Assembly: GCF_030852425.1 (NCBI RefSeq)
Contig: NZ_NSDM01000020.1
Span: 1 to 64,000, forward strand
Source: Saccharothrix longispora
GTDB taxonomy: Bacteria > Actinomycetota > Actinomycetes > Mycobacteriales > Pseudonocardiaceae
Direction: 5' to 3'
Length of the DNA stretch: 64,000 bases
Below the pieces are notes generated by a model that saw nothing but the letters and a program-made list of their open reading frames with translations, was not told where the DNA came from and searched no databases. The first letter of the stretch is position 1. Each line of letters opens with the position of its first letter. Both the position numbers and the translations under genes were made by a program. This document shows positions 18,119 through 33,221 of this stretch, one piece after another.

Positions 18119-18141
18119 CGCGCCTCCTCTGGCGACACATT

Positions 18142-18153: not shown

Positions 18154-18204
18154 TATGGTTCACCCGACGCGCTCTGGCGTCAAGGCGAGCCCACGAGTAG
18201 GTTA

Positions 18205-18220
18205 CTAAGCGGTTGCTTAG
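18205..18220. promoter_or_regulatory. TetR-type operator, site A (CTAAGCGGTTGCTTAG)
   Basis: A perfect inverted repeat, CTAAGC-GGTT-GCTTAG, lies 25 bp upstream of the fabG-like start. Exactly the same 16 bases occur at 26802-26817, and relatives at 26820-26835 and 30192-30207, all upstream of acyl-CoA-related genes. The TetR encoded at 26874 is the natural candidate ligand-responsive repressor. Confidence 0.75.
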
Positions 18221-18245
18221 GCCCGCAGATCAAGGAGGACTGACC

Positions 18246-19007
18246 GTGGCCGAGACTGACGCACGGGTGGCGATCGTCACCGGCGCCGCGCGGGGCATCG
18301 GCGCCGCCGTAGCCACCCGCCTCGCGCAGGACGGGTTCGCCGTCGCGCTGCTCGACCTGGACGAGGACGGCTGCGCGGACGCCGTCGGGAAGATCCGGGC
18401 CGCGGGCGGCACGGCCCTCGCGGTGGGGGTGGACGTCGGCGACAGCGCCGCGGTGGAGGCGGCCGTGCAGCGCGTGGCCGACGAGCTGGGCCCGCCGGTC
18501 GTCCTGGTGAACAACGCGGGTGTCCTGCGCGACAACCTGCTGTTCAAGATGACCGACGACGACTGGGACACGGTCGTGAACGTGCACCTGCGGGGCTCGT
18601 TCCTGATGAGCCGCGCGGTGCAGCGGTACCAGACGAAGGCGGGCTGGGGCCGGATCGTGAACCTGTCCAGCACCTCCGCGCTGGGCAACCGGGGCCAGGC
18701 CAACTACGCCGCCGCCAAGGCGGGCCTCCAGGGCTTCACCAAGACGCTGGCCATCGAGCTGGGCAAGTTCGGCGTCACGGTCAACGCGATCGCCCCGGGC
18801 TTCATCGCCACCGACATGACCGCCGCCACCGCGGCCCGCGTCGGCGTGGACTTCGAGGACTTCAAGAAGGGCGCCGCCGCCGCCATCCCGGTCGGCCGCG
18901 TCGGCACGCCCGAGGACATCGCGCACACGGCGTCGTTCCTGGTGAGCGACGGCGCGGGGTTCGTGTCCGGTCAGGTCCTGTACGTCGCCGGCGGACCGAA
19001 GGACTGA
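18246..19007 (+). CDS. 3-oxoacyl-ACP reductase-like SDR (FabG family)
   Basis: The 253-residue SDR has TGAARGIG cofactor motif (~residues 12-19), VLVNNAGVLRDN, Ser in NLSSTSALG, the catalytic YAAAKAGLQ, and the PGFIATDMT loop typical of FabG-type reductases. It would reduce a 3-oxoacyl thioester or oxidise a 3-hydroxyacyl-CoA. GTG 18246 is preceded by AAGGAGG at good spacing. The operator site A lies just upstream and a MaoC dehydratase follows with one base between. The pair covers hydroxyacyl oxidation/reduction and (de)hydration, two adjacent steps of a beta-oxidation-like or synthesis cycle. Confidence 0.88.
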   Translation: MAETDARVAIVTGAARGIGAAVATRLAQDGFAVALLDLDEDGCADAVGKIRAAGGTALAVGVDVGDSAAVEAAVQRVADELGPPVVLVNNAGVLRDNLLFKMTDDDWDTVVNVHLRGSFLMSRAVQRYQTKAGWGRIVNLSSTSALGNRGQANYAAAKAGLQGFTKTLAIELGKFGVTVNAIAPGFIATDMTAATAARVGVDFEDFKKGAAAAIPVGRVGTPEDIAHTASFLVSDGAGFVSGQVLYVAGGPKD

Positions 19008-19008
19008 C

Positions 19009-19461
19009 ATGCGGGTATTCGCGAACCTCGACGAACTGGCCGCCGCCCGGGGCGAGCACCTGGGCTTCGGCGACTGGCACGAGATCACCCAGGACGAGAT
19101 CAACCTGTTCGCCGACGCCACCGGCGACCACCAGTGGATCCACGTCGACCTGGAGAAGGCCGCCGCCGGACCGTTCGGCGCCCCGGTCGCGCACGGCTAC
19201 CTCACGCTGTCGCTCATCCCGATGCTGGTGCGCGACGTCTACACCGTCCAGGGCTTGAAGATGGGCGTGAACTACGGCCTGAACAAGGTCCGCTTCCCCA
19301 GCCCGGTCACGGTGGGCTCGCGCGTCCGGGCGGGCGCCGAGCTGGTCGAGATCACCGACACCGCGCAGGGCAGGCAGGCGGTGGTGAAGGTGACCGTCGA
19401 GATCGACGGCCACCCCAAGCCCGCGTGCGTCGCCGAGACCGTGGTGCTGCTCGTCGCCTAG
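19009..19461 (+). CDS. MaoC-like (R)-specific enoyl-CoA hydratase
   Basis: The 150-residue single hot-dog-fold protein has the hydratase 2 motif FADATGDHQWIHVD (~residues 35-48), with the catalytic Asp and His, followed by FGAPVAHGYLTLSLIP. This is a full-length stand-alone MaoC. It hydrates trans-2-enoyl-CoA to the (R)-3-hydroxyacyl-CoA or the reverse. The ATG comes one base after the fabG stop, so it is the second gene of the operon under operator site A. A hairpin (19483-19510) closes the unit. Confidence 0.9.
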   Translation: MRVFANLDELAAARGEHLGFGDWHEITQDEINLFADATGDHQWIHVDLEKAAAGPFGAPVAHGYLTLSLIPMLVRDVYTVQGLKMGVNYGLNKVRFPSPVTVGSRVRAGAELVEITDTAQGRQAVVKVTVEIDGHPKPACVAETVVLLVA

Positions 19462-19482
19462 CGGGAGGACTCGGCGGAACCG

Positions 19483-19510
19483 CCGGGCCACGTCCCCCGG
19501 CGTGGCCCGG
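19483..19510. terminator. Bidirectional hairpin between maoC-like and tetR genes
   Basis: CCGGGCCACG (19483-19492) pairs with CGTGGCCCGG (19501-19510), an 8-base loop between convergent genes. Confidence 0.75.
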
Positions 19511-19521
19511 TGCCCCGCACC

Positions 19522-20094
19522 CTAGGCGGGGCGCAGCGACCCCAGCAGCAGATCGGCGAAGTGCCCGCCGACCTGCTCGGCCGACAGCGGGCCGTCCGCG
19601 CTGTACCACTGGCCGAGGTGGTGCACGGTGCCGAAGAAGTAGTGGACGGTGAGGTCCGCGGGCACGTCGGCGCGGAACACCCCCGCCTCCTGGCCCTCCT
19701 CGACCAGCGAACGGAACCGCTCGTGGTAGCGGCGTCGCTCGGCGCGCACCTCGCGGCGCTTGTCCTCCGCCAACTGGTCGGCCGAGCGGAAGTACACGCG
19801 GGCCTGGTCGAAGTTGTCCACGGAGGTCACGACGACGTCCACGGCGGCGGCGCGCAGCCGTTCGGCGACCGGCGCGGACCCGTCCGCGATCCCCACCAGC
19901 CGCTCGGTCTGCATCCGCAGCAGGCTGCCGTAGATCTCGTGCAGCAGGTCGTCCTTGGACCCGAAGTAGTGGTACATGGCGCCCTTGGTGACGCCCGCCA
20001 GGTCGACGATCTCCTGCACCGCGACCCGGTCGAAGCCCTTCGCGGCGAACAGCCGGGTCGCCGCGTCGATCAGCCGCTCCGGTACCGATGCCAT
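19522..20094 (-). CDS. TetR/AcrR family transcriptional regulator
   Basis: The 190-residue regulator has an N-terminal TetR helix-turn-helix (LIDAATRLFAAKGFDRVAVQ then GVTKGAMYHYFGSKDDLL). Its all-helical ligand domain contains LAEDKRREVRAERRRYHERF and TVHYFFGTVHHLGQWY. ATG 20094 is chosen because the family N-terminus (MASVPERLIDAATRLF) starts there. It is convergent with the fabG-maoC pair. The ligand domain resembles TetR proteins linked to fatty-acid or acyl-CoA genes, and it could control the SDR operon via 18142-18153 (inference). Confidence 0.9.
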   Translation of the reverse strand: MASVPERLIDAATRLFAAKGFDRVAVQEIVDLAGVTKGAMYHYFGSKDDLLHEIYGSLLRMQTERLVGIADGSAPVAERLRAAAVDVVVTSVDNFDQARVYFRSADQLAEDKRREVRAERRRYHERFRSLVEEGQEAGVFRADVPADLTVHYFFGTVHHLGQWYSADGPLSAEQVGGHFADLLLGSLRPA

Positions 20095-20117
20095 GCGCCA
20101 AGCATCGCACGCGGCGA

Positions 20118-20873
20118 TCACTGGAACATCGCGATGGGTCGCACGACCAGGTGCCCCTCCTCCGCCTTCCACGCCTGCACCTTGCCCAGGCACCGGGCGT
20201 GGAACCCGCCGTCGGGCACCACGTCGTCGCGCAGCCCCGAGTCCAGGCACTCGACGCGCACCTGCGGACCGGTCTCCGGGTCGTCCGGGTCGCCGAACGG
20301 GGCCAGGAACACCGTCGTGCCGTCGCCCTGGGAGTGGACCCGGAACACGCCCTTGACCGACACGTACGAGTCGACGCGCCGCAGCCGCACCGCCCCCGAG
20401 GCGCCCAGGTGCTGCTCCAGGGCGGTGTTGCGCAGCAGCGTCCGGTCGCGCAGGTCCACGTGCACCACGCCGGAGGCCGACTCCAGCGCGCCCAGCAGCA
20501 CGCCGATCACCGCGATCGGCTCGGAGTTCTCGATGTAGGTCTTCACCACCTCGCGCCCGGACGTGCGCACGCCCTCCACCCCGAGGTCGAGGCCCTTGAG
20601 CGCGATCTTGCCGTCCTTGGTGACGCCGACGCGGTCCACGACCTCCTTGGTCATCGCGTCGCCGTACCGGCCGACCTGGTAGAGGTCCATCACGGACTTC
20701 TCGTTGAGGTAGATCGTCAGCCCCGGCACGTCGCGCGGGGGCGCGAACCGGTGCCGGGAGCGCCACGCCCACACCGCCACGCCGACGGCGACGAGCAGCG
20801 CGAGGGCGGTCACCACCCACACGACCGCCCACGGCCACCAGACGGACCACCACAGCGCCCTATCGACAGCCAC
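20118..20873 (-). CDS. Membrane protein of unknown function, third gene of the SBP/VWA operon
   Basis: The 251-residue protein has one N-terminal membrane helix rich in Trp (VVWVVTALALLVAVGVAVWA, ~residues 17-36) followed by an Arg-rich stop. The extracytoplasmic or cytoplasmic remainder is mixed beta/alpha with LTIYLNEKSVMDLYQVGRYG and KGLDLGVEGVRTSGREVV. I do not recognise a family. GTG 20873 lies behind GAGGGAG and overlaps the stop of the VWA gene by 14 bases, so it is translationally coupled to it. The context argues for a complex with the two upstream proteins at the membrane. Confidence 0.65.
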   Translation of the reverse strand: MAVDRALWWSVWWPWAVVWVVTALALLVAVGVAVWAWRSRHRFAPPRDVPGLTIYLNEKSVMDLYQVGRYGDAMTKEVVDRVGVTKDGKIALKGLDLGVEGVRTSGREVVKTYIENSEPIAVIGVLLGALESASGVVHVDLRDRTLLRNTALEQHLGASGAVRLRRVDSYVSVKGVFRVHSQGDGTTVFLAPFGDPDDPETGPQVRVECLDSGLRDDVVPDGGFHARCLGKVQAWKAEEGHLVVRPIAMFQ

Positions 20874-22314
20874 GGATCTCCCTCACCGCCTCCGGCAGCG
20901 ACCCGGAGGTCGCGTCCACGACCCGGCCGCCGCCCGCCAGCGCCACCCGGGCCAGCTCAGCCGGGTCGGCCTCGCCGAACCGGATCGCGTACGTGCGGGG
21001 CGGGGCGGGCCACGCGGCCAGCAGTTCGTCCGCGCTCATCCCCGCGTTGTTCTCGCCGTCGGTCATCAGCACGACCGTGCCGCCGCCCGCGAGCCGGTAG
21101 GCGTGGTCGAGGGCGGAGAAGATCGCCGTGTGGCCGGCCAGCCCCGCCGAGCCCAGCGCCCGCGACAGCTCCGCCAGGTCGGCCTCGCCGCGCACGGTCA
21201 CCGACCGCTCCTCCAGCACGGTCCCGGCGAACCGCACCAGCACCACCGTCTCCCCCACCCGGAACCGGTCGAAGCCGCCGCCGAGGCCCAGCGTCGCGAA
21301 CACCTCGCGCAGCCCGGCGATGCGCGGGCCCTCCATCGACGTGGAGTGGTCGAGCACGAACACCACGGTGGCGGGCTGCCCGGCCCGGTCGTAGGCGGCG
21401 AGCAGGGAGTCCACCACGTCCTGCGTCGCCGGGAAGTACAGCGCCGTGCCGACGGGTTCGCGCAGCTGCGCCACGCGATCCAGCGAGGCGTCGACCGGGC
21501 GGCGCAGCGTGCGCTCCATGATCGACTTCTGGGCGGACGGCGTGCGCAGCCAGTCCACCACCCGGTCGTAGACCGCCCGCTTGCCCGGTTCGAGCAGCAT
21601 CAGCGGGTAGTCCGACAGCACGATGCCGTCACGCGGGTAGACGACGTCCAGCGGTTCGCGCAGCCGCCCGGAGGCGTTGAGCGACAACACGGTCGACTCG
21701 TAGCCGACGACGGCGTCCACCTCGTCCTGCCGCCGCACGTACTCCTCGGCGACCTCGGCCGCGCCGTCCGCGCCGACCACCCGGCCGGTGAGGAAGCCCT
21801 GGAGCTTGTCGCACGCCACGTCCCCGGGGCGCAGCGCCGCGCCGGTGCCCGCGGCGGCCGTGGCGACGCCGATCAGCGCGGCCAGGCCGCTGCCGGCCAC
21901 CCTCGGGTCGGCCATCGCGAACCGCAGCTCCCCCGCCGCCGCGCGGGCCGCCACGTCCGCCCACGACCCGCCGCGCAGCCCGTCCGCGCGGCCCGCCTTC
22001 ACGCCCAGCACCAGCGGCGAGAGCATCGTGCTGGTGGACAGCGGCACGTCGGCGCCGCGCAGCCGCAGGTAGCGGTTGGTGGCCAGCCAGGCGAGGTCGT
22101 GGCCGGTGCCCGCGGCCAGCTCCTCGCTGGCCCGCACCGTGCCCCGGTAGTCGAGCTTCAGCTCCACGCCGGTGTCGCGGCGCAGGTCGGCCAGCACCGG
22201 TTCGAGGTCGGCCAGCTCTGAACCGGCGAGCACGGTCACCACGACGGGGTCGGGCGTCGCGGTCGTGCAGCCGCCCACCAGCGCCAGGACCAGCAGTGCG
22301 GCGAGCCGCCTCAC
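20860..22314 (-). CDS. Lipoprotein: solute-binding-like domain fused to a von Willebrand A domain
   Basis: The 484-residue lipoprotein has a signal with lipobox LVLALVGGC (Cys ~16). Residues ~25-295 form a bacterial extracellular solute-binding fold (VTVLAGSELADLEPVLADL, DLAWLATNRYLRL, VVYPRDGIVLSDYPL). Residues ~310-475 are a VWA domain with intact MIDAS: DxSxS in VFVLDHSTSMEG, Thr in LAGHTAIFSALD, Asp in VLMTDGENNAG. Such fusions bind a ligand or partner at the outer face of the membrane via a metal ion. Start and stop overlap both neighbours (GTGA upstream), so the three-gene operon is tight. No permease or ATPase is nearby. Function unknown. Confidence 0.8.
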   Translation of the reverse strand: MRRLAALLVLALVGGCTTATPDPVVVTVLAGSELADLEPVLADLRRDTGVELKLDYRGTVRASEELAAGTGHDLAWLATNRYLRLRGADVPLSTSTMLSPLVLGVKAGRADGLRGGSWADVAARAAAGELRFAMADPRVAGSGLAALIGVATAAAGTGAALRPGDVACDKLQGFLTGRVVGADGAAEVAEEYVRRQDEVDAVVGYESTVLSLNASGRLREPLDVVYPRDGIVLSDYPLMLLEPGKRAVYDRVVDWLRTPSAQKSIMERTLRRPVDASLDRVAQLREPVGTALYFPATQDVVDSLLAAYDRAGQPATVVFVLDHSTSMEGPRIAGLREVFATLGLGGGFDRFRVGETVVLVRFAGTVLEERSVTVRGEADLAELSRALGSAGLAGHTAIFSALDHAYRLAGGGTVVLMTDGENNAGMSADELLAAWPAPPRTYAIRFGEADPAELARVALAGGGRVVDATSGSLPEAVREIRGCR

Positions 22315-23486
22315 AGGGGCACCCCGCTCGGGCAGCGGGCGACCTCGCCGATCATCGCCGCCAGGTCCTCGGACCTGGGCAGGAACGTCTCGGTGCCGCC
22401 CGCGCCGGGGTCGGGTTCCTCGATGCCGCGCCCCGCCAGCACGTCGCCCAGGGACGCGCTGCCCGCGCGGCCGAGCCGGAACCCCAGCTCCAGCGCGCGC
22501 CGCCGCAGGTCCGGGTCGGTGTCCAGCAGCCGGCCCACCCGCTCCCCCGCCTCGCTGAACGCGATCAGCCACGGCTCGGTGTGGTGGTGGGCGTCGGGGT
22601 AGAGCAGCACGCGGGAGGCGTCCACCGCGCCCGTCTCCTGCTTGGTGCGGATCTGGTAGGCCAGGTACTGGTGCTCGTAGACGACGCCGACGGGCGCGAA
22701 CGTGCGGCCGTCCGGTGCGAAGAAGGTGCGGCCGATGCCCGCGCCGAACTGGCCCTCGACCTCGAACAGCGGCCGGACGCGGGCCGCGACCTCCGCCGCG
22801 TCGGCGGCGGTGGGCGTGCGCTTGCCGTTGAGCGCGAACGCGACCAGCCCGAGGTAGGCGGCGCCGGAGTAGGCCCGGCACGGGTCGGGCGACTGGGCGA
22901 TGACCTGGTTGGCGTTGCCCAGGCCCGTGCCCAGCGCGGCCCAGGTCGTGTGCGACCGGGTCAGCTCGACGAACGCGGCCATGTCGAGCCGGTAGTAGAG
23001 CGAGCCCTCGCTGCGGGGCGTGGCGACGCCCCCGGGCCCGAGCGCGTCGGCGTACTCGCGGAACGCGGCGACCACCAGCGGCGTGGTGAACGGGTAGAAC
23101 AGCGTGCCGCCCAGCTCGTCGTGGATGCGCCGGGCGGTGACCTGGCCGGACGGCATGACGAAGTCGAAGGAGTCGGCCTTGTCCCGGGAGATCTCCAGCG
23201 AGCCGCCGGAGTCGGTCAGGTGCACCTGGATGCCCTTGGACATCAGGATGCGGCGGACCTCTCCGTCGTTGAAGAAGTCCGCCTTCGACGCCATCAGGGC
23301 GCGGACGACGGTGACGGCCTGGAACGGCAGGGCGACCGTGCCTCCCGCGAACAGCGCGACGACCCCCACGAGCGCCAGGCCCGCGGAGACGCCGAACGGC
23401 AGCAGGAAGCGCTTGCGCCGGAAGACCGGGCGAGGCGGGTCGAGGACGGTCAAGCCTGGCTCGTCGGTCGTGCTCGTCGCGACCAC
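22311..23486 (-). CDS. Membrane-anchored solute-binding-like protein, first gene of SBP/VWA operon
   Basis: The 391-residue protein has a short cytoplasmic basic head, one membrane helix (LLPFGVSAGLALVGVVALFAGG cut to its core at ~residues 29-48) and a large outer domain. That domain shows FFNDGEVRRILMSKGIQVHL, FDFVMPSGQVTARRI and VIAQSPDPCRAYSGAAYLGL, consistent with a type 2 solute-binding fold as found in VWA-associated clusters. It starts at GTG 23486 behind GGGGAG and ends overlapping the next gene (TGA within GTGA). The ligand is not evident and no transporter genes accompany it. Confidence 0.65.
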   Translation of the reverse strand: MVATSTTDEPGLTVLDPPRPVFRRKRFLLPFGVSAGLALVGVVALFAGGTVALPFQAVTVVRALMASKADFFNDGEVRRILMSKGIQVHLTDSGGSLEISRDKADSFDFVMPSGQVTARRIHDELGGTLFYPFTTPLVVAAFREYADALGPGGVATPRSEGSLYYRLDMAAFVELTRSHTTWAALGTGLGNANQVIAQSPDPCRAYSGAAYLGLVAFALNGKRTPTAADAAEVAARVRPLFEVEGQFGAGIGRTFFAPDGRTFAPVGVVYEHQYLAYQIRTKQETGAVDASRVLLYPDAHHHTEPWLIAFSEAGERVGRLLDTDPDLRRRALELGFRLGRAGSASLGDVLAGRGIEEPDPGAGGTETFLPRSEDLAAMIGEVARCPSGVPL

Positions 23487-23568
23487 GGGACTCCCCTGCG
23501 CCGGTGATCGAGGTGCCGGACCACCAGGTTAGGTCGCCCCGTGCCGCGACGTCACCACAACCGGCGAA

Positions 23569-24330
23569 TCAGCCCCCGAGCGTCACGCCGCCGTCGACGA
23601 CGAACGTCGCGCCGGTGGTGTAGCCACCCGCCGGGGAGGCGAGGAACACCACGGCCGCCGCCAGCTCCTCCGGATCGCCCACCCGGCCCAGCGGCAGGCG
23701 CGCGATGTGCCCCTCCAGGTAGCCCTCGGGGTACTGGTCGGTCATCTCGGAGGCGAAGTAGCCGGGCGCGAGGGCGTTGACCCGGATGCCCTTGCGGCCG
23801 GTCCACTGCTGGGCCAGGTCGCGGGTCAGGCCGAGCAGTCCGGCCTTCGACGCGGAGTAGGCGGCCTGCGGCAGCCCGCCGGAGACCAGGCCGAGCACGG
23901 ACGACACGTTGACGATCGACCCGCCGTCGGTCATCACGGCCGCCGCCGCCTGGGCCATCCAGTAGGCGCCGTTGAGGTTGACGTCCATGACGCCGAGGAA
24001 CTGCTCGGGCGTCTCCCGCGACGCGGGCACCGCGGAGGCCACGCCCGCGTTGTTCACCAGCACCGCGACCCGGCCGAAGTCGGCGGCGGCGCGGGCCACC
24101 TCGCGGCAGTCGTCGGGCTGCGCCACGTCCGCGGCCACGACCAGCGCCCGCCGGCCGGCCGCCTCGACCAGCCGCGCGGTGGCCTCCAGGCGGTCCACGC
24201 GCCGCGCGGCCAGCACGACGTCCGCGCCCGCCTCGGCGAGGCCCTTGGCGAACGCCACGCCCAGGCCCGACGACGCGCCGGTGACGATCGCGACCTTCCC
24301 GTCGAGCCGGAACTTGTCGAGGATGCCCAT
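23569..24330 (-). CDS. SDR family oxidoreductase (FabG-like)
   Basis: The 253-residue short-chain dehydrogenase has TGASSGLG (~residues 17-24), Arg in LAARRVDRLEA (favouring NADP(H)), NNAGVAS, Ser in NVSSVLGL and the catalytic pair in YSASKAGLLG. The ending VVDGGVTLGG is canonical. The ATG overlaps the thiolase stop by one base (TGATG), so it is translated together with the thiolase and likely handles a 3-hydroxyacyl-CoA or related alcohol in the same pathway. Confidence 0.9.
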   Translation of the reverse strand: MGILDKFRLDGKVAIVTGASSGLGVAFAKGLAEAGADVVLAARRVDRLEATARLVEAAGRRALVVAADVAQPDDCREVARAAADFGRVAVLVNNAGVASAVPASRETPEQFLGVMDVNLNGAYWMAQAAAAVMTDGGSIVNVSSVLGLVSGGLPQAAYSASKAGLLGLTRDLAQQWTGRKGIRVNALAPGYFASEMTDQYPEGYLEGHIARLPLGRVGDPEELAAAVVFLASPAGGYTTGATFVVDGGVTLGG

Positions 24331-25532
24331 CAGGAAAGCCTTTCCAGGATGATCGCCATGCCCTGACCGCCGCCGACGCACATCGTCTCCAGGCCGAACT
24401 GCGCGTCGCGGGCGCGCATCCCGTTGATCAGGGTCGTCATGATGCGCGCGCCGGTGGAGCCGAACGGGTGGCCCAGCGCGATGGCGCCGCCGTGCACGTT
24501 GAGCTTGTCGACGTCGATGCCGAGCGCGCGCTGGCTGCCCAGCACCTGCACGGCGAACGCCTCGTTGATCTCGACCAGGTCGATGTCGCCGATGGACATG
24601 CCCGCGTGCCCGAGGGCCTGCCGGGTGGCGTCGACGGGGCCCAGTCCCATGATCTCCGGGCTGAGGCCGGACACGCCGGTGGACACGATGCGCGCCAACG
24701 GCGTCAGGCCGAGCTCGCGCGCCCTCGTGTCGCTCATGACCACCACGGCCGCCGCGCCGTCGTTGAGCGGGCAGCAGTTGCCGGGCGTGACCGTCCCCTG
24801 TGGACGGAAGGACGGCGTGAGCGCGCCGACCGCCTCCGGTGTCACGCCCTTGCGCGGGCCGTCGTCGGTGCGCACCACCGTGCCGTCGGGCAGGGTCACC
24901 GGCGTGATCTCGCGCTCGAAGAAGCCGTCGGCGATCGCCTTCTCGGCCAGGTTGTGCGAGCGCACGCCGAACTCGTCCTGCTCGGCGCGGGAGATGCCGA
25001 GCAGCGTGGCGACGTTCTCCGCGGTCTGCCCCATGGAGATGTAGTAGTCCGGCAGCAGGCCGTCCTCGCGCGGGTCGTGCCACACCTCGTTGGTCGCGGC
25101 GGTGCGCTCGGTGCGGGTCATCGCGTCGGCGAACAGCGGGTTGAGGTACGGGTCGCCGTGCCGGTAGCGGGAGACGCACTCCACGCCCGCGCTGACGAAC
25201 GCGTGCCCCTCGCCCGCCTTGATCGCGTGGAACGCCATCCGCGCGGTCTGCACCGAGGAGGCGCAGAACCGGTTGACCGTGGTGCCGGGCACCGTGTCCA
25301 GGCCGAGCTGCACCGCGATCCGGCGGGCCGCGTTCTGGCCGTGCTCGTCCTGCGGTTCGGCGCACCCCAGGTGCAGGTCGGTGATCTCGCGCGGGTCCAG
25401 CTCGGGCACCTGGGCGAGGGCCGCGCCGACGATCTGCGCGGCGAGGTCGTCCGGTCGCAGGTCGACCAGCGACCCCTTGCGGGCGCGGCCGATCGGGGAC
25501 CGCGAGGTGGCGACGACGACAGCCTCGGGCAT
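24330..25532 (-). CDS. Acetyl-CoA C-acyltransferase (thiolase, FadA-like)
   Basis: The 400-residue thiolase has nucleophilic Cys in VNRFCASSVQTARM (~residue 89), His in IALGHPFGSTGAR (~354) and the second Cys in ETMCVGGGQGMA (~386), all at the expected positions. It cleaves 3-ketoacyl-CoA to acetyl-CoA and a shortened acyl-CoA. ATG 25532 follows GGAGATCCC. It is the first gene of a two-gene unit with the SDR, located just downstream of an acyl-CoA dehydrogenase in the same direction (~105-bp gap). Confidence 0.95.
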   Translation of the reverse strand: MPEAVVVATSRSPIGRARKGSLVDLRPDDLAAQIVGAALAQVPELDPREITDLHLGCAEPQDEHGQNAARRIAVQLGLDTVPGTTVNRFCASSVQTARMAFHAIKAGEGHAFVSAGVECVSRYRHGDPYLNPLFADAMTRTERTAATNEVWHDPREDGLLPDYYISMGQTAENVATLLGISRAEQDEFGVRSHNLAEKAIADGFFEREITPVTLPDGTVVRTDDGPRKGVTPEAVGALTPSFRPQGTVTPGNCCPLNDGAAAVVVMSDTRARELGLTPLARIVSTGVSGLSPEIMGLGPVDATRQALGHAGMSIGDIDLVEINEAFAVQVLGSQRALGIDVDKLNVHGGAIALGHPFGSTGARIMTTLINGMRARDAQFGLETMCVGGGQGMAIILERLS

Positions 25533-25638
25533 GGGATCTCCTCATCTTCTGCCGCTGCTTCGCAGACGGCGGGCTCGGCCGCCGGGAAGTCGGCCCATCG
25601 GGGCGTCGCGGCCTCGCGTGGGGGTGCGCGCCGGGGGA

Positions 25639-26787
25639 CTACAGGCCCAGGTCGCGGCCGATCAGTTCCTTCATGATCTCGTTGGAGCCGGCCCAGATCC
25701 TGGTGACACGGGCGTCCATCCAGGCGCGGGCCACGCGGTACTCGGTCATGTAGCCGTAGCCGCCGTGCAGCTGCACGCAGGCGTCGATGACCTCGTTCTG
25801 CACGTCCGAGCTCCAGTACTTCGCCTTGGCGGCGTCGGTGGCGGACAGCTCGCGGCGGGTGTGCGCGTCGGTGCACTGGTCCAGGAACGCCTGCGTCACG
25901 TCGACCTTGGTGACCAGTTCGGCGAGGGTGAACTTGTTGTGCTGGAACGTGCCGATGGCCTGGCCGAACGCCTTGCGCTCCTTGGCGTAGGCGATCGTCT
26001 CCTCCAGGATCTGCCTGGCGTGCGCCAGGTTGGAGATGGCGCCGCCGAGGCGTTCCTGCGGCAGGCGCTCCATCATGTGGATGAAGCCCCTGTCGACCTC
26101 GCCGATGACGTTCCCGGCGGGGATCAGCACGTCGTCGAAGAACAGCTCGGCGGTGTCGGACTCGGGCTGGCCGACCTTGTCGAGCTTGCGGCCGCGCTCG
26201 AAGCCCTTCATGCCGGTCTCGACGGCGAACAGCGTGATGCCGCGGGCGGGCTTGACGTCGGGGTTGGTGCGCGCGGCGATGACCACCATGTCGGCGGAGA
26301 ACCCGTTGGTGATGAACGTCTTCGAGCCGTTGAGGACCCAGTCGGAGCCCTTGCGCACGGCGTTGCTCTTGAGCGCGGCGAGGTCGGAGCCGCCGGACGG
26401 CTCGGTCATGCCGATGCCCGTGGTCATCTCGCCCGAGCAGAACCGGGGCAGCCAGCGCCGCTTCTGCTCCTCGGTGCACAGGTCGGCCAGGTAGGGGGCG
26501 ACGACGTCGCCGTGGATGCCCAGGCACGACGCCATGCCGGCGCTGACCTTGGACAGCTCCTCGCCGAGGACGGCGTTGAAGCGGTAGTCGTTCGCGCCGC
26601 TGCCGCCGTGCTCCTCGGGGATCTCCAGGCCGAGGAGGCCCTGGCGGCCCGCCTCCAGCCACACCTCCCGGTCGATGTGCCGCTGTTCGACGAACTTCTC
26701 GTACCCCGGCTTGAGCGTGCGGTCGACGAATGCCCTCGCGGTCTCGCGGAACGCGTCGTGGTCGGGTTCGAACAGCGTGCGGCGCAC
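25639..26787 (-). CDS. Acyl-CoA dehydrogenase
   Basis: The 382-residue flavoprotein has FAD-binding FCSGEMTTGIGMTEPSGGSD (two-signature region, ~residues 125-145), WVLNGSKTFITNG, and the C-terminal QLHGGYGYMTEYRVAR with IWAGSNEIMKELIGRDL. The residue before the C-terminal GGYG is in the loop that normally precedes the catalytic Glu. It performs the first oxidation of acyl-CoA beta-oxidation. GTG 26787 follows GGAGG. Its promoter region contains two CTAAGC-N4-GCTTAG operators shared with the divergent tetR gene, so it is probably repressed by that regulator. Confidence 0.95.
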   Translation of the reverse strand: MRRTLFEPDHDAFRETARAFVDRTLKPGYEKFVEQRHIDREVWLEAGRQGLLGLEIPEEHGGSGANDYRFNAVLGEELSKVSAGMASCLGIHGDVVAPYLADLCTEEQKRRWLPRFCSGEMTTGIGMTEPSGGSDLAALKSNAVRKGSDWVLNGSKTFITNGFSADMVVIAARTNPDVKPARGITLFAVETGMKGFERGRKLDKVGQPESDTAELFFDDVLIPAGNVIGEVDRGFIHMMERLPQERLGGAISNLAHARQILEETIAYAKERKAFGQAIGTFQHNKFTLAELVTKVDVTQAFLDQCTDAHTRRELSATDAAKAKYWSSDVQNEVIDACVQLHGGYGYMTEYRVARAWMDARVTRIWAGSNEIMKELIGRDLGL

Positions 26788-26801
26788 TCGGGACCTCCAT
26801 A

Positions 26802-26835
26802 CTAAGCGGTTGCTTAGGCCTAAGCGTGTGCTTAG
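26802..26835. promoter_or_regulatory. Tandem TetR-type operators B1 and B2 in the acd-tetR divergent promoter
   Basis: CTAAGC-GGTT-GCTTAG at 26802-26817 is followed after two bases by CTAAGC-GTGT-GCTTAG at 26820-26835. The centres are 18 bp apart, so two dimers could bind side by side. The sites lie between the acyl-CoA dehydrogenase start (26787) and the tetR start (26874), the usual layout for an autoregulated TetR. Confidence 0.85.
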
Positions 26836-26873
26836 CGTGCGGTATCGTCCGACTTCGTGTCAAGGAGGGTGTG

Positions 26874-27497
26874 ATGACGTCGACCCGCGGCGAGTTCGCG
26901 CTGCTGGACGAGACCTGGGCGTCGGTGACGCCCCCTGCGGCGAGGCGCATGCTCATCGCCGCGGCCGCCGCGTTCTCGGTCCGCGGCTACCACGCGACGA
27001 CCACGCGGGACATCGCCGCGCAGGCCGGCATGTCCCCCGCCGCGGTCTACATCCACTACCGGTCCAAGGAGGAGCTGCTCTTCCAGATCTCCCGGGTCGG
27101 GCACACGACGTCGCTGTCCGTGCTGACCCGCGTGCCCGACGGACCGCCGGCGACGCGCCTGGCGGCGGCCGTGCGCGCGTTCGCGTCCTGGCACGCCGAG
27201 TTCCACACGACCGCGCGGGTCGTGCAGTACGAGCTGAGCGCGCTGACCCCCGAGCACCTGGCCGAGGTCGTGGAGCTGCGCCGGCGCATCGAGGCGGCCG
27301 TGCGCGACATGGTCGAGGCGGGCGTGCGCGCGGGCGAGTTCGACGTGCCCGACGTGCGCGGCGCGGTGCTGGCGGTGCTGTCGCTGTGCATCGACGTGGC
27401 CCGCTGGTTCAAGCCGGACCGGGGCCGCACGCCGGAGGAGATCGGCGACCTGTACGCGGACCTCGTGCTGCGCATGGTGGGCGCGTCCGCCCCCTGA
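26874..27497 (+). CDS. TetR/AcrR family regulator, candidate repressor of the CTAAGC regulon
   Basis: The 207-residue regulator has helix-turn-helix MLIAAAAAFSVRGYHATTTR / AGMSPAAVYIHYRSKEELLF (~residues 24-70) and a helical ligand domain (LAAAVRAFASWHAEFHTT, VVELRRRIEAAVRDMVEAGV). ATG 26874 is preceded by AAGGAGG. It is divergent from the acyl-CoA dehydrogenase across two perfect operators. By analogy with actinobacterial TetR repressors of fatty-acid catabolism its ligand may be an acyl-CoA (inference). Its stop codon lies inside a 22-bp terminator stem. Confidence 0.92.
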   Translation: MTSTRGEFALLDETWASVTPPAARRMLIAAAAAFSVRGYHATTTRDIAAQAGMSPAAVYIHYRSKEELLFQISRVGHTTSLSVLTRVPDGPPATRLAAAVRAFASWHAEFHTTARVVQYELSALTPEHLAEVVELRRRIEAAVRDMVEAGVRAGEFDVPDVRGAVLAVLSLCIDVARWFKPDRGRTPEEIGDLYADLVLRMVGASAP

Positions 27498-27541
27498 GGG
27501 TCGCATCCCGAGGCCCGGCCCTCGGGATGCGACCCTCAGGG
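27492..27541. terminator. 22-bp perfect stem overlapping both convergent stop codons
   Basis: 27492-27513 and 27520-27541 are exact reverse complements with a 6-base loop CCCGGC. The tetR stop (27495-27497) lies in the left arm and the PIN-gene stop (27536-27538) in the right arm, so one symmetric hairpin serves both genes. Confidence 0.92.
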
Positions 27542-28747
27542 CGTCAGCCAGCCCTGCTCGCGGGCGGAGTCGGAGCCGTCCCACCCCGCGCCGGAGCGCC
27601 ACACGGCCGGCACGCCCAGCACGCTCACGCCGTTGAGCAGCATGTCCGCGGGCCGTTCGGGGAAGACGACCACGCCGATGCCCGCGTGCCTGCGCGCGAG
27701 CCCGCCGATCCACGCCGCGGCGGCCCTCGGGTCGCCCCGCTGCGCGTCGAGCACCAGCGCGCCGCGCTCGACGCCCCGGCGCTCCCCCTCGACGACCACG
27801 TGGTTGCGCCGGTAGTCGACCACCACCGCCTCGAAGCCCTGGTCCGCGACGAACGCGCCGGCCAACCGCTCCAGCCCGGTGACGTCCTCCCGGGGCCGCG
27901 CGGCGCGGCCGACGTCGGCGAACGACCCCTCCCGCACGGCGAGGTCGAACTGCTCGCGGGCGTGCCGCAGGAAGGTGTCCGGGCGCATCAGGAACAGCCG
28001 CACCCCGGCCGCCGCGCGCAGCTCCTCGTACAGGTCGGGCCGGGGACCGCGGGGGTTGCCCTCGTCGTCGACGCGCCACCAGCCCTCCCCGGAGCCGCCG
28101 GTGACGAGCAGGACGTCCTGCCGGCGCGCGGTGGCCTCGACGAGCAGTTCCCGCCAGACCGCGCGCCGCGTCGGCTCGCCGGACGGCTCGTCGGCCGGGT
28201 CGTGGGGGCGCGGTTCGCCGACGCGCCCGTAGAGCAGGCCGTCGAGGTCGGCCACGACCGGGTCCTCCTCGGTGTCGGCCACGGCGGTGACGTGCCGCCG
28301 GGCGACGTCGGTCAGGCGGTCGGCCACGTGCCCGTGCGCGTCGCGCAGGCCCTGCTCCAGCCCGTGCAGCGACTCGGCGTCGAGCGACACCCGGTCCGCC
28401 CAGGCGCGCAGGCCGCGCAGCGCCTGCTCCTCGGCCGCGGCGAGGGCGGCGGTCGCCTCGTCGGTCGCCCGCCCCACGTCGCCGAGCGCGGCCTCCCGGC
28501 CCCGCCAGAACCCGGCCAGCGCCTGGTGCGGCACCCAGAGGCGGTCGCGCACCCGGTGCAGCGCCTTGAGCAGGTCCGCGCGGGCGGCGGCGGGGTAGCG
28601 GTAGAGGTCGAGCAGGGTCGCGGTGTCGAGCACGACCATGCCGCGCGCGAACAGGTCGCGGTGGTGGTCGGGCCGCGCCGTGCGGTAGGCGCCGAAGTCG
28701 TCGAGGATTCCCCTGGTCGTGCCGTCGATCGGCTGCGCGTCGGGCAT
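27536..28747 (-). CDS. PIN-like domain protein (PIN_8/DUF4935-type)
   Basis: The 403-residue protein has an N-terminal PIN-like nuclease fold: MVVLDTATLLDLYRYP (~residues 36-51, first acidic residue of the metal site) and RVRDRLWVPHQALAGFWRGR. A helical middle follows (RATDEATAALAAAEEQALRG), then PVVADLDGLLYGRVG, RRQDVLLVTGGSGEGWWRV and a C-terminal region with VVVDYRRNHVVVEGE. Similar long PIN-like proteins are predicted RNases, sometimes found in defence contexts, but function is not established. No antitoxin-like partner is adjacent. Starts at ATG 28747; a single gene ending in a shared terminator. Confidence 0.7.
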   Translation of the reverse strand: MPDAQPIDGTTRGILDDFGAYRTARPDHHRDLFARGMVVLDTATLLDLYRYPAAARADLLKALHRVRDRLWVPHQALAGFWRGREAALGDVGRATDEATAALAAAEEQALRGLRAWADRVSLDAESLHGLEQGLRDAHGHVADRLTDVARRHVTAVADTEEDPVVADLDGLLYGRVGEPRPHDPADEPSGEPTRRAVWRELLVEATARRQDVLLVTGGSGEGWWRVDDEGNPRGPRPDLYEELRAAAGVRLFLMRPDTFLRHAREQFDLAVREGSFADVGRAARPREDVTGLERLAGAFVADQGFEAVVVDYRRNHVVVEGERRGVERGALVLDAQRGDPRAAAAWIGGLARRHAGIGVVVFPERPADMLLNGVSVLGVPAVWRSGAGWDGSDSAREQGWLTP

Positions 28748-28795
28748 CCCGGGATTGTCGTCCCCCCGCCTCCGCCCGGGGAGCAGGGGTCCCCG

Positions 28796-28821
28796 GGGGA
28801 CCTCCCGGGCCGGAGGTCCCC
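28796..28821 (-). terminator. Hairpin after the GlsB-like gene
   Basis: GGGGACCTCC (28796-28805) pairs with GGAGGTCCCC (28812-28821), 13 bp downstream of the GlsB-like stop on the minus strand. Confidence 0.65.
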
Positions 28822-28834
28822 GGGACCGGACCGG

Positions 28835-29107
28835 CTAGCGCCTGGACGTCTTGCCGTAGAAGCCCGCCGCGAGGCTGACGCCGACGGCGGAGATGACGAC
28901 CTGGAAGAGCAGTTCGAGCCAGTCGACGCGCGGTGTCTCCTCGACGCCGAACGCGCGGGCCACGAGCGTGCCCAGGAAGGCCGCCACGACGCCGACCACG
29001 ATCGTCAGCCAGATCGGGATGGCCTGCTTGCCCGGCGCGACCAGCTTGCCCAGCAAGCCGATGACGAGGCCGATGATCAAACCGCCGATGACGCTGTCGA
29101 TGCCCAT
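28835..29107 (-). CDS. GlsB/YeaQ/YmgE family small membrane protein
   Basis: The 90-residue protein has three hydrophobic helices and the Gly-rich motif GGLIIGLVIGLLGKLVAPGK of the transglycosylase-associated (GlsB/YmgE) family, usually stress-induced inner-membrane proteins of unknown mechanism. The ATG at 29107 follows GGAGGCGTC; the open frame runs upstream into the Spo0M gene without support. The C-terminal half is longer than the ~80-residue minimal family, with an extra amphipathic segment (ETPRVDWLELLFQ). It sits 16 bp after the Spo0M-like gene, probably in one operon. Confidence 0.85.
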   Translation of the reverse strand: MGIDSVIGGLIIGLVIGLLGKLVAPGKQAIPIWLTIVVGVVAAFLGTLVARAFGVEETPRVDWLELLFQVVISAVGVSLAAGFYGKTSRR

Positions 29108-29123
29108 GACGCCTCCTGCCGGG

Positions 29124-30059
29124 TCACTCGCCCTCGAAGAAGTCCCCGACCTCGTCGAGGGCCTCACCGAGGATCATCCCACCGAACACGCCGGCCGCGG
29201 CCCCCGCGACGAGGCCGCCGGCGCCCATCCCCCGACCGTGGTGACCGCCGTGGTGACCGCCGTGCATCCCGTGACCGCCGGACGAGCGCCTGCCCGCGAC
29301 CTGCTCCATCCACTGGTGCACCAGCGCCGCCCAGTCCGTGCGGACCACCTCGTCGTGGGTCATCGCGAAGTGCCCGAACGAGTCGCCGCCCTGCCGGAAC
29401 AGGCCGCCCCGGCGGTCGGCCTCCAGCACCGTGTAGAGGTGGTGCGGGTCGGTCACGAAGGTCAGCTCCAACTGGCTGATCCTGGACAGGAACTGCTGCG
29501 GCGGCAGGAACTCGATCTCCTGGTAGAACGGCAGCTGCTGCGGCACGCCGTGGATGCGGCCCTGCTCGTTGTCGGCCCGCTGGAAGCGGAAGCCGAGGGC
29601 GCCGAACGCGTTGAGCACGTGCTCCTGCGAGTGCACCGGGTGCACGGCGACCGGGTCGAGGTCACCGGGGTCGACGGCGCCGCGCACCTCCAGCTCGGTG
29701 CGCAGGCCCATGGTCATGCCGTGCAGCGGTTGGCCGTGCACGACGGTCAGCGGCGTCTCCAGCGGCACGGGGAACCGGAACGGGAGCACGAGGTTCTGGC
29801 CGGGGCCGACGGCGACGCGCCGGCCGACGACGAGCCGGGCGAACTCGACGGTGCGGTTGTGCTCGTTGTCGCCGCTCTCCACCTCGACCCGGGTGACGAG
29901 CGACAGCTTGACCTCGTCGATGTCGGCGGGGTGGTCGCCGCCCATGATCCGGACCTCGCCGGTGAGCAGCTCGCCCGGCCGGACGTTCGGGTTGGCCAGC
30001 ACCGTGTCCACCGTGGGACCGCCGACCCCGAACGCGCGCAACATCCTCTTGAAAACCAC
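29124..30059 (-). CDS. Spo0M (SpoOM) family protein with His/Gly-rich linker
   Basis: The 311-residue protein has an arrestin-like Spo0M domain (residues ~1-235: MLRAFGVGGPTVDTVL, GELLTGEVRIMGGDHPADID, and GALGFRFQRADNEQGRIHG). In bacilli Spo0M affects sporulation and septum/cell-shape control; in actinobacteria its role is unclear. After this comes an unusual His/Gly-rich run (HGMHGGHHGGHHGRG, ~residues 265-280), a possible metal-binding patch. A Gly/Ala hydrophobic hairpin follows, then an acidic end. GTG 30059 is preceded by AGGAGG. Likely co-transcribed with the GlsB-like gene. Confidence 0.88.
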   Translation of the reverse strand: MVFKRMLRAFGVGGPTVDTVLANPNVRPGELLTGEVRIMGGDHPADIDEVKLSLVTRVEVESGDNEHNRTVEFARLVVGRRVAVGPGQNLVLPFRFPVPLETPLTVVHGQPLHGMTMGLRTELEVRGAVDPGDLDPVAVHPVHSQEHVLNAFGALGFRFQRADNEQGRIHGVPQQLPFYQEIEFLPPQQFLSRISQLELTFVTDPHHLYTVLEADRRGGLFRQGGDSFGHFAMTHDEVVRTDWAALVHQWMEQVAGRRSSGGHGMHGGHHGGHHGRGMGAGGLVAGAAAGVFGGMILGEALDEVGDFFEGE

Positions 30060-30191
30060 GGTGGTGCCTCCTGGACTGCTCTCCGGATCGCGCCCCTGGG
30101 GCCGAATGCACCAAGGACGTCCCACCCGGTGGATCGGTTCCCTCTGGACGAACGCTAAGCCCGGGTGCCAGTATGCGACCGCCGTCACATA

Positions 30192-30207
30192 CTAAGCGGT
30201 CGCTCAG
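30192..30207. promoter_or_regulatory. TetR-type operator, site C (CTAAGC-GGTC-GCTCAG)
   Basis: This site differs by one base in the right half (GCTCAG for GCTTAG) from the perfect sites at 18205 and 26802. It lies 29 bp upstream of the carboxylase start. Confidence 0.65.
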
Positions 30208-30236: not shown

Positions 30237-33221
30237 GTGCCCACGCTGCTCGTCGCCAACCGGGGCGAGATCGCCGTCCGCGTGCTGCGCGCCGCCGCCG
30301 ACCTCGGCTGGGGCACCGTCGCGCTGGTCACCGATTCCGACGACGCGCACGCCCGGTTCGCCGACCGCGCCGTGCGCCTGCCCGACCAGCGGTCGTACCT
30401 GGACGCGGACGCGGTGCTCGGCGCGGCGTCCGGCTGCGACCTGGTGCACCCCGGCTACGGCTTCCTCGCCGAGAACGCCGGGTTCGCGCGCCGCTGCGCC
30501 GAGGCCGGCCTGACCTTCGTCGGACCGCCGCCCGAGGTGCTGGAGCTGCTCGGCGACAAGACCCGGGCCCGTGCGCTGGCCGCCGGCGCGAGCGTGCCCG
30601 TCCTCGCCGGCGCCGGCGAGGACTTCGAGGGGTTCTTCCGGGAGCACGGGGCGTGCGTGGTGAAGGCGGTCGCGGGCGGCGGCGGCAAGGGCGTGCGGGT
30701 CGTGCGCCGGCTCGCCGACCTGGACGCGGCGGTGCGCCGGTGCCGGGCGGAGGCGCTGGCCTCGTTCGGCGACGACGCCGTGTACGTCGAGGAGCTGCTG
30801 GAACCCGCCCGGCACGTCGAGGTGCAACTGGTCGGCACGACCGTGCTCGGCGACCGCGACTGCTCGGTGCAGTCGCACCACCAGAAGGTGATCGAGGTCG
30901 CCCCCGCGCCGGACCTGGCCGACGACCTGCGCTCCGCCCTGCACGACGCGGCGACCGTCATCGCCCGCGCCGTCCGCTACACCGGGCTCGGCACGGTGGA
31001 GTTCCTGCTCGCGCCGGACGGGCGGTTCGCGTTCCTGGAGGCCAACCCCCGCCTCCAGGTCGAGCACACCGTCACCGAGCAGGTCACCGGCCTGGACCTG
31101 GTGCGGGCGCAGCTGCTGCTGGCCTCCGAGGTCGAGCCGGACCTGGCGCACACCCCGCGCGGCAGCGCGCTCCAGCTGCGGGTCAGCCTCACCTCGACCG
31201 GGCGGCTGTCGGCGTTCACGCCGCCGACCGGGCCGGGCGTGCGGGTGGACACGCACGCCTCCGTCGGCTACCGGGCGGGCCTGGGCTTCGACCCCCTGCT
31301 GGCGAAGGTCGTCGTGCACGCCGACGACCCGGCCACGGCGCTGCGGCGGGCCAAGCGGGCGCTCGACGAGTTCACCGTGGACGGCGCCCGCACGAACATC
31401 CCGTTCCTGCGCGGCCTGCTGGACCACCCGGACGTGCTGCGCGCGCACACCGGCCTCGTCGACTCGCTGCCGCGCGAGGACACCGGCGCGCGCTCCCCCG
31501 TGCAGGGCGTCGTGGTCGCGGTCGAGGACGGCCAGGTCGTCGTCGAGGCGATGAAGATGCAGCACGTCGTGCCGGTCGGCGACGGCCGCGTGCTGGTGTC
31601 GGTGGGCGACCAGGTGCCGGAGGGGGCGCTGCTCGCCGAGGGCGTGGACGCGGCGGGCGTCGACATCGGGGCGACCGCGAAGGCCGTCGAGGTGGACCTG
31701 GACGACGTGCGCCCCGACCTGGCCGAGACGCTGGCCCGGCACGACTTCGCCCGCCCGGAGGCGGAGGCCGCGCGGCACGCGGCCGGCCGGCGCACCGCGC
31801 GGGAGAACATCGCCGACCTGTGCGAGGACTTCACCGAGTACGGCGGCCTCGCCATCGCCGCGCAGCGCCGCCGCCGGTCGCTGGACGAGCTGGTCGAGCG
31901 CACCCCCGCCGACGGCCTGGTCGCGGGCATCGGCGTGGTGGGCGGCGAGCGGGTCGTGGCCATGTCCTACGACTACGCGGTGCTCGCGGGCACGCAGGGC
32001 ATCCGCAACCACGCCAAGAAGGACCGGATGTTCGCCCTGGCCGAGCGGCAGCGGCTGCCCGTGGTGCTGTTCGCCGAGGGCGGTGGCGGTCGGCCCGGCG
32101 ACACCGACCACGACGGCGTGAGCTGGCTGGACTGCATGGCGTTCCACCTGTTCGCGAAGCTGTCCGCGCTGGTGCCGCTGGTGGGCATCGCGTCGGGCCG
32201 GTGCTTCGCGGGCAACGCCGTGCTGCTGGGCACGTGCGACGTGGTGATCGCGACGCGGGACGCCACCATCGGCATGGGCGGCCCGGCGATGATCGAGGGC
32301 GGCGGGCTCGGCGTGTTCCGGCCGGAGGAGGTCGGGCCGGTCGACGTGCAGGTGCCCAACGGCGTCGTCGACGTGCTGGTCGCCGACGACGCCGAGGCGG
32401 TCGCCGTGGCGCGCAAGTACCTGTCGTACTTCCAGGGGCCGGTGGACCGGTGGGAGTGCGCCGACCAGCGCCTGCTGCGGCACGTCGTGCCCGAGGACCG
32501 GGTGCGCGCCTACGACGTGCGGGCCGCGGTGGGGACGCTGGCCGACACCGGCTCGGTGCTGGAGCTGCGCGCCGCGTTCGGGCGCGGGATCGTCACGGCG
32601 CTCGTGCGGGTCGAGGGCAGGCCGCTGGGGCTGATCGCGAACGACCCGGCGCACCTGGGCGGCGCGATCGACTCCGACGCCGCCGACAAGGCCGCCCGGT
32701 TCCTCCAGCTGTGCGACGCGTTCGACCTGCCCGTGCTGTCGCTGTGCGACACGCCGGGGTTCATGGTCGGCCCGGACGCCGAGCGCACCGCCACCGTGCG
32801 GCACCTGACCCGGCTGCTCGTGGCGGGCGCGAACCTCGACGTGCCCTTCGGGTTCGTGGCGCTGCGCAAGGCGTACGGGCTGGGCGCGCAGGCGATGGCC
32901 GCGGGCAGCCTCAAGGTGCCGCGGTTCGCGATCTCGTGGCCCAGCGGCGAGTTCGGCCCGATGGGGCTGGAGGGCGCGGTGCGCCTGGGGTACCGGCGCG
33001 AGCTGGACGCCATCGACGACCCCGCGCAGCGGCGCGAGGCGTTCGAGGCCATGGTCGCCGCCGCCTACGAGCACGGCAAGGCGCTCAACGTCGCGTCCGC
33101 GTTCGAGATCGACGACGTCGTCGACCCGGCGGACACGCGGCACTGGGTCACCACCCAGCTGACCTCCCCCGACCGCGTCGCGCGGGTCGGGAAGAAACGC
33201 CCGTTCGTGGACACCTGGTGA
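30237..33221 (+). CDS. Single-chain biotin-dependent acyl-CoA carboxylase (biotin carboxylase + BCCP + carboxyltransferase)
   Basis: The 994-residue enzyme carries a whole carboxylase on one chain. Residues 1-~420 are biotin carboxylase (LLVANRGEIAVRVLRAA, AVAGGGGKGVRVVR ATP-grasp loop, FLEANPRLQVEHTVTEQ). Residues ~425-475 are a short biotinyl domain with the biotin lysine in VVEAMKMQHVVPV. Residues ~500-994 are a two-part carboxyltransferase (ARENIADLCEDFTEYGG, GNAVLLGTCDVVIATRD, LCDTPGFMVGPDAE, AYGLGAQAMAAGS). Related single-chain long-chain acyl-CoA carboxylases are known from mycobacteria. GTG 30237 follows GGAGG and operator site C lies upstream. A transporter follows 10 bp downstream. 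Substrate acyl-CoA is not known. Confidence 0.9.
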   Translation: MPTLLVANRGEIAVRVLRAAADLGWGTVALVTDSDDAHARFADRAVRLPDQRSYLDADAVLGAASGCDLVHPGYGFLAENAGFARRCAEAGLTFVGPPPEVLELLGDKTRARALAAGASVPVLAGAGEDFEGFFREHGACVVKAVAGGGGKGVRVVRRLADLDAAVRRCRAEALASFGDDAVYVEELLEPARHVEVQLVGTTVLGDRDCSVQSHHQKVIEVAPAPDLADDLRSALHDAATVIARAVRYTGLGTVEFLLAPDGRFAFLEANPRLQVEHTVTEQVTGLDLVRAQLLLASEVEPDLAHTPRGSALQLRVSLTSTGRLSAFTPPTGPGVRVDTHASVGYRAGLGFDPLLAKVVVHADDPATALRRAKRALDEFTVDGARTNIPFLRGLLDHPDVLRAHTGLVDSLPREDTGARSPVQGVVVAVEDGQVVVEAMKMQHVVPVGDGRVLVSVGDQVPEGALLAEGVDAAGVDIGATAKAVEVDLDDVRPDLAETLARHDFARPEAEAARHAAGRRTARENIADLCEDFTEYGGLAIAAQRRRRSLDELVERTPADGLVAGIGVVGGERVVAMSYDYAVLAGTQGIRNHAKKDRMFALAERQRLPVVLFAEGGGGRPGDTDHDGVSWLDCMAFHLFAKLSALVPLVGIASGRCFAGNAVLLGTCDVVIATRDATIGMGGPAMIEGGGLGVFRPEEVGPVDVQVPNGVVDVLVADDAEAVAVARKYLSYFQGPVDRWECADQRLLRHVVPEDRVRAYDVRAAVGTLADTGSVLELRAAFGRGIVTALVRVEGRPLGLIANDPAHLGGAIDSDAADKAARFLQLCDAFDLPVLSLCDTPGFMVGPDAERTATVRHLTRLLVAGANLDVPFGFVALRKAYGLGAQAMAAGSLKVPRFAISWPSGEFGPMGLEGAVRLGYRRELDAIDDPAQRREAFEAMVAAAYEHGKALNVASAFEIDDVVDPADTRHWVTTQLTSPDRVARVGKKRPFVDTW

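Follow-up and report, generated by a model that had tools for sequence, protein, structure and literature searches.

Local, autoregulated TetR regulons for acyl-coenzyme A (acyl-CoA) catabolism are known. In Thermus, FadR controls an operon for a 3-hydroxyacyl-CoA dehydrogenase, a thiolase and an acyl-CoA dehydrogenase (PMC5597230). KstR2, a mycobacterial TetR repressor of cholesterol catabolism, has its gene close to three palindromic sites (PMC3068626). In actinobacteria, the TetR repressors AccR and BkaR act on genes for acyl-CoA dehydrogenases or carboxylases (PMC10933834, PMC3920632). AcrT and PccD of Saccharopolyspora, which belongs to the same bacterial family as the host studied here, are TetR regulators of acyl-CoA carboxylase genes (PMC8546615, PMC10933834). 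Statements on these systems, here and below, are limited to passages of the cited papers. The DNA under study is a 64,000-nucleotide stretch of the soil actinomycete Saccharothrix longispora (contig NZ_NSDM01000020.1, positions 1 to 64,000), referred to as the window. It contains a TetR gene, tetR1, and four palindromic sites of the form CTAAGC-N4-GCTTAG at genes of acyl-CoA metabolism. TetR1 is very probably a repressor, released by an acyl-CoA, of three transcription units: acd/tetR1, fabG-maoC and carboxylase-transporter. At the level of sequence, this regulon is confirmed as real and well predicted.

The closest described systems share features with this locus and have different operators. 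Bacillus FadR, solved with stearoyl-CoA, has the same TetR fold as TetR1 at about 20% identity (fold search). The predicted regulon is also FadR-like in its way of working, with a beta-oxidation set (acd, MaoC, FabG, thiolase) behind the sites or in the same unit. The Thermus FadR operator, tTRNACYNRGTNYAa (PMC5597230), does not match CTAAGC-N4-GCTTAG, and TetR1 is rejected as a FadR by the NCBIfam model NF053878 (33.2 bits against a cut-off of 200). KstR2 is related to TetR1 in sequence at only 48 bits, and its operator, AnCAAGnnCTTGnT, and target genes are different (PMC3068626). BkaR, like TetR1, has a divergent promoter with two sites; its operator is GTTA(N)T(N4)A(N)TAAC (PMC3920632). The operator of AccR is GTTAA-N6-TTAAC (PMC10933834), and the motifs of AcrT and PccD are nttGaTc and t/aTGACGg/cTGt/cTGt/a (PMC8546615, PMC10933834). 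None of these is the same system. The passages on PccD of Mycolicibacterium (PMC11596240) contain no motif. The carboxylase of the locus resembles 4rcn and SACE_3154 (group III), in which BC, BCCP and CT are also present in one chain; the words TetR and regulator are absent from the main text of the paper on the single-chain long-chain acyl-CoA carboxylase. No paper with CTAAGC-N4-GCTTAG was found in open-access text, a search with subscription papers mostly outside it. Text matches to looser half-sites are mostly chance or primers, together with the KstR2 paper, and are no proof of absence. This repressor, its DNA sites, the link to a single-chain acyl-CoA carboxylase and the second regulator described below are new.

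The four sites (operators A1 to A4, Table 1) were reported in the preliminary description, and all are present where it placed them: three are perfect and the site at 30192 has a GCTCAG half-site. They were said to lie just upstream of acyl-CoA genes or of the tetR gene, and this is borne out by the distances from site to nearest start codon, which are 14 bases for acd, 25 for fabG, 29 for the carboxylase and 38 for tetR1. Two of the sites lie side by side in the divergent acd/tetR1 promoter with centres 18 base pairs (bp) apart, also as described. In the window, four matches at two or fewer mismatches are present where 0.34 are expected, and none of 100 shuffles reaches four. The preliminary description had proposed a genome-wide scan, and had named scattered intragenic copies of the motif as the result that would speak against the regulon. 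Such copies are not seen: in the whole genome (8,284,653 bases, 54 contigs, 99.4% complete), the only matches at one or no mismatch are these same four, all at the locus. The three perfect matches compare with 0.12 expected from base composition or 0.009 from a dinucleotide chain. The reversed control pattern has seven matches per strand at one or no mismatch. One-mismatch sites number one, versus 5.7 expected by composition; A4 is thus unremarkable on count alone, and its weight comes from its conservation.

Presence of the sites follows presence of TetR1 across genomes. The comparison set consists of 150 Pseudonocardiaceae genomes, 85 of which contain a TetR1 ortholog (E <= 1e-45). Of these 85, 64 have the perfect site, compared with only 1 of the 65 others (Fisher test, 1e-22). 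The control pattern, read backwards, is not associated with TetR1 (14/85 versus 8/65, p 0.64). The genomes are not independent of one another and were therefore collapsed into units, one for each combination of genus and TetR1 state. The perfect site is then found in 20 of 27 units with TetR1 and in none of 23 without. Genomes with and without TetR1 both occur in four genera. In the host genus, sites are present in 5/5 genomes with TetR1 and 0/2 without; in genus g45, the counts are 4/4 and 0/1. In the other two, g5 (three genomes with TetR1, three without) and g35 (one and one), no genome has a perfect site.

The two host-genus genomes without TetR1, G021 and G059, form a natural comparison: the genes are present without the repressor and the operators. 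Neither has a TetR1 match at E <= 1e-20 or a carboxylase match at E <= 1e-200. Both hold acd (80-81%), maoC (70-72%), fabG (84%), TetR2 (77%) and the second palindrome, operator B. The sequences ahead of fabG and acd contain no CTAAGC site. No site at two or fewer mismatches is present in the 20 kilobases (kb) fetched, where the nearest has three, and neither the perfect site nor the GCTNAG variant occurs in either whole genome.

In related loci, the sites stay with their genes. Among the best 80 related loci listed, the nearest are from Saccharothrix (TetR1 85-88%; 78% in S. coeruleofusca), followed by Umezawaea and Lentzea (68-73%) and then by Streptomyces and its neighbours (63-70%). In Saccharothrix, Lentzea, Umezawaea and genus g22, sites are found ahead of the carboxylase and of fabG-maoC as well as between acd and tetR1. 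This arrangement persists where gene order differs: in one genome (G060) the carboxylase is at the opposite end of the cluster, yet sites still precede their genes, and in another (G022) it is about 23 kb from tetR1 with the sites still beside their genes. All 19 named Saccharothrix, Umezawaea and Lentzea loci have the paired sites, 18 bp apart, ahead of tetR1. Every named close locus that holds fabG (14/14) has a site within 150 bp upstream of it. Of 51 carboxylase matches, 30 loci were examined, 11 in the close clade and 19 outside. All 11 in the close clade have a site at two or fewer mismatches, in 10 of them TACTAAGCGGTCGCTCAG; this conservation is taken from these scans, as another listing used patterns that fix most of the operator. 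The proposal in the preliminary description that one TetR governs three transcription units is supported both by the dependence of the sites on TetR1 and by their retention at those units despite reordering.

In more distant genera, the site precedes fabG or its run in four loci (L092, L093, L095, L097). The 61 Streptomyces-type loci include 44 with at least one site, versus 2 for the reversed pattern. In 23 a site is upstream of tetR, and in 29 a site is present at +1000 to +1300, in every case ahead of a maoC homolog. The usual form in these loci is CTAAGCGCTTGCTCAG. The GCTCAG half-site at 30192 is therefore a normal conserved variant, since Streptomyces-type loci commonly have it. By these comparisons, the wider core of the regulon is tetR1 with fabG-maoC or with maoC. 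A TetR clade with members in both Pseudonocardiaceae and Streptomyces-type genomes thereby gains a predicted operator that can be tested. A further site is present in G031 (L235).

The predicted TetR1 protein has the characters of its family: a helix-turn-helix TetR_N domain (PF00440, 59 bits), an all-helical C-terminal domain (PF17932, 114 bits), and palindromic sites in its own divergent promoter, two of them between acd and tetR1. Its DNA-reading region is nearly invariant across 39 aligned rows, which are 51-88% identical to the query; a conserved operator would lead one to expect this. The predicted structure (pLDDT, the predicted local distance difference test, 92) consists of helices only and has TetR neighbours in the PDB. 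The nearest is 3him, a structure without stated function, followed by PfmR, DarR, AibR, KstR2 and FadR.

In the proposed mechanism, a TetR1 dimer would bind CTAAGC-N4-GCTTAG as a repressor. Two dimers side by side at the acd/tetR1 promoter would silence both genes, making tetR1 autoregulated, and single dimers would occupy A1, ahead of fabG-maoC, and A4, ahead of the carboxylase-transporter unit. As the CoA thioester of the substrate accumulates, it would bind the C-terminal domain of TetR1 and the operators would be freed. Derepression would then yield the enzymes of a beta-oxidation turn, an acyl-CoA carboxylase and an importer for the acid. A different mode of action, with TetR1 as an activator or as a repressor that responds to another ligand such as a free acid or a nucleotide, is unlikely. 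The TetR family includes an activator, FasR, named in NCBIfam, and the neighbour DarR is solved with cyclic di-AMP. However, the distances of 14-38 bp between operators and start codons would fit repression, two of the neighbours, AibR and FadR, have structures with acyl-CoAs (isovaleryl-CoA and stearoyl-CoA), and in the passages cited above KstR2, BkaR and AccR repress acyl-CoA genes. The structural neighbours of the model favour an acyl-CoA ligand and are not proof of one.

Several observations weigh against an acyl-CoA-released TetR1 repressor with this regulon. The perfect site is missing from 21 of the 85 TetR1 genomes. In seven of these, the core TAAGC-N4-GCTTA lies within 170 bp of tetR1; in seven it is 7.9-8.6 kb away; and in the remaining seven it is absent near tetR1. 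In 17/61 Streptomyces-type loci there is no site at one or no mismatch, and some distant genera have extra sites away from tetR1. The carboxylase site is found in none of the 19 examined loci outside the close clade, though 12 of the 19 genomes have TetR1. Control of the carboxylase by an A4-type site looks clade-specific (Saccharothrix, Lentzea, Umezawaea and g22); in this one clade, a beta-oxidation set and a transporter would be linked with the single-chain long-chain acyl-CoA carboxylase, an enzyme of poorly known role. A consensus promoter scan calls no promoter at the CTAAGC sites, and no gene of the regulon was recognised as an acyl-CoA ligase. Finally, the binding of cyclic di-AMP by DarR means that the fold is no proof of an acyl-CoA ligand.

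A second TetR gene, tetR2, is absent from the preliminary description. It was found by a search of the host genome with TetR1 (match 19540-20100), and its start is masked by a longer open reading frame (ORF) call, 19522-20853. Ownership of the CTAAGC sites by TetR2, or competition of both proteins for them, is very unlikely. TetR2 adjoins fabG-maoC, has the same TetR_C_24 domain as TetR1, and is more conserved than TetR1 in three genomes (G143, G127, G088; 92-94% versus 85-88%). In genus g27 (L095), a CTAAGC site is directly upstream of a tetR2-fabG-maoC run. This is not congruent with the distribution of the sites. When the genomes are split by both proteins, the CTAAGC site is present in 40/49 with TetR1 and TetR2, 24/36 with TetR1 only, 0/27 with TetR2 only and 1/38 with neither. 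The sole TetR1-less genome with a perfect site, G121, has no TetR2 match either. In the window, no CTAAGC site at two or fewer mismatches is near the start of tetR2. TetR1 is supported as the owner because the sites track TetR1 and not TetR2. Still less likely is that the palindromes are another conserved element, an RNA hairpin or a promoter element: they lie a short distance from start codons, some of them next to the ribosome-binding site, but they are paired in a divergent promoter, depend on TetR1 across genomes, and are missing from TetR1-less relatives with the same genes.

TetR2 is instead associated with another palindrome, operator B, between SDRa and fabG, which is likewise absent from the preliminary description. 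Among the 91 genomes with TetR2 or a paralogue (E <= 1e-30), 50 have operator B at two or fewer mismatches, compared with 0/59 of those with neither. Operator B is not associated with TetR1 (33/85 with, 17/65 without, p 0.12). A copy of operator B has a TetR2 paralogue 1.0-1.9 kb away in 14 genomes; these include the host genome, on contig C51. The host genome has three places at three or fewer mismatches to the 21-base form of operator B, one of them 1.0 kb from the C51 paralogue. Operator B thus tracks TetR2 and its paralogues rather than TetR1, and would belong with them. Because operator B tracks TetR2 while CTAAGC tracks TetR1, two regulators are proposed at the fabG promoter, and the fabG/SDRa intergenic region is probably a meeting point of two repressors with two operators. 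SDRa is a probable target of TetR2. The Thermus protein TTHA0973 was considered as a match for operator B and rejected, as its consensus in the passages of PMC6651687, AACnAACGTTnGTT, does not fit. A different wiring is seen in L095, where tetR1 is flanked by sites in addition to the site in front of the tetR2-fabG-maoC run.

Coordinates of the regulators, predicted operators and structural genes are given in Table 1.

Table 1. Predicted operators and genes of the locus, in window coordinates.
Feature	Coordinates	Strand	Description
Operator A1	18205..18220	strandless	CTAAGCGGTTGCTTAG, perfect; upstream of fabG-maoC; predicted operator
Operator A2	26802..26817	strandless	CTAAGCGGTTGCTTAG, perfect; acd-proximal one of the paired sites
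Operator A3	26820..26835	strandless	CTAAGCGTGTGCTTAG, perfect; tetR1-proximal one of the paired sites
Operator A4	30192..30207	strandless	CTAAGCGGTCGCTCAG, one mismatch (GCTCAG half-site); upstream of carboxylase
Operator B	18139..18157	strandless	ATTCCGACCAGTCGGTATG, palindrome between SDRa and fabG, near SDRa start; predicted
tetR1	26874..27497	+	207 amino acids, TetR_N and TetR_C_24; proposed owner of CTAAGC operators
tetR2	19522..20094	-	190 amino acids, TetR_C_24; convergent with fabG-maoC
acd	25639..26787	-	Acyl-CoA dehydrogenase, closest to human long-chain acyl-CoA dehydrogenase
thiolase	24330..25532	-	Acetyl-CoA C-acetyltransferase (NCBIfam PRK07851); probably transcribed by read-through from acd
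SDRb	23569..24330	-	SDR oxidoreductase; last gene of acd unit
fabG-like	18246..19007	+	3-oxoacyl reductase/dehydrogenase
maoC	19009..19461	+	MaoC-type hydratase; closest solved relative Rv0130
carboxylase	30237..33221	+	Single-chain BC-BCCP-CT acyl-CoA carboxylase; relative of long-chain acyl-CoA carboxylase 4rcn
MFS transporter	33232..34527	+	Metabolite:H+ symporter type; downstream of carboxylase
SDRa	17315..18118	-	Short-chain dehydrogenase; divergent from fabG
Quinone-oxidoreductase-like, zinc-type	16353..17453	-	After SDRa; start uncertain, longest reading overlaps SDRa

By their computed families, Acd, MaoC, FabG and the thiolase would make up one beta-oxidation turn. Acd keeps the LPQERL glutamate, which is a glutamine in entry 8w0z. 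The match of MaoC to Rv0130 suggests that the route probably passes through an R-hydroxyacyl-CoA. The thiolase-SDR unit has no site of its own, and the preliminary description supposed that it reads through from the acd promoter. Comparison of loci supports this: of the 19 named close loci, 15 have a thiolase (>=70%) after acd, the two alignments being 13-22 bp apart, and the other four have none there. In the window, acd and the thiolase gene are about 106 bp apart. The carboxylase has BC and CT domains and an EAMKMQ biotinylation motif in one chain, and its best match is 4rcn (995 bits); by this architecture and closeness it fits a single-chain long-chain acyl-CoA carboxylase. The transporter scores 372 bits against TIGR00883, below the cut-off of 443. 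The best guess for the substrate is a long-chain or branched acyl-CoA. Domain searches give no family match for the window ORFs 22311-23486 and 20118-20873.

A bolder and rather doubtful reading is that these genes form an undescribed pathway. The long-chain or branched acyl-CoA of an imported acid would be shortened through an R-hydroxyacyl-CoA turn and carboxylated, and TetR1 and TetR2 would sense different CoA thioesters, integrated at the fabG/SDRa promoter. If true, such a pathway would give the long-chain acyl-CoA carboxylase a physiological context.

Other genes and repeats adjoin the regulon. A near-symmetrical repeat, AGTATGCGAC/GTCACATACT, is present at 30170-30193, at the start of the carboxylase unit. 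A PIN-like domain gene (PF18476; 27536-28747, minus strand) adjoins tetR1 and has a homolog in 1 of the 100 loci L080-L179 (L104). A Spo0M-like gene (PF07070; 29124-30188), divergent from the carboxylase, is present in 19/19 named close loci. The carboxylase-transporter unit is followed by a gene for a SecA-like protein of 773 amino acids (34781-37102), and a homolog (>=60%) is likewise present in all 19 named close loci.

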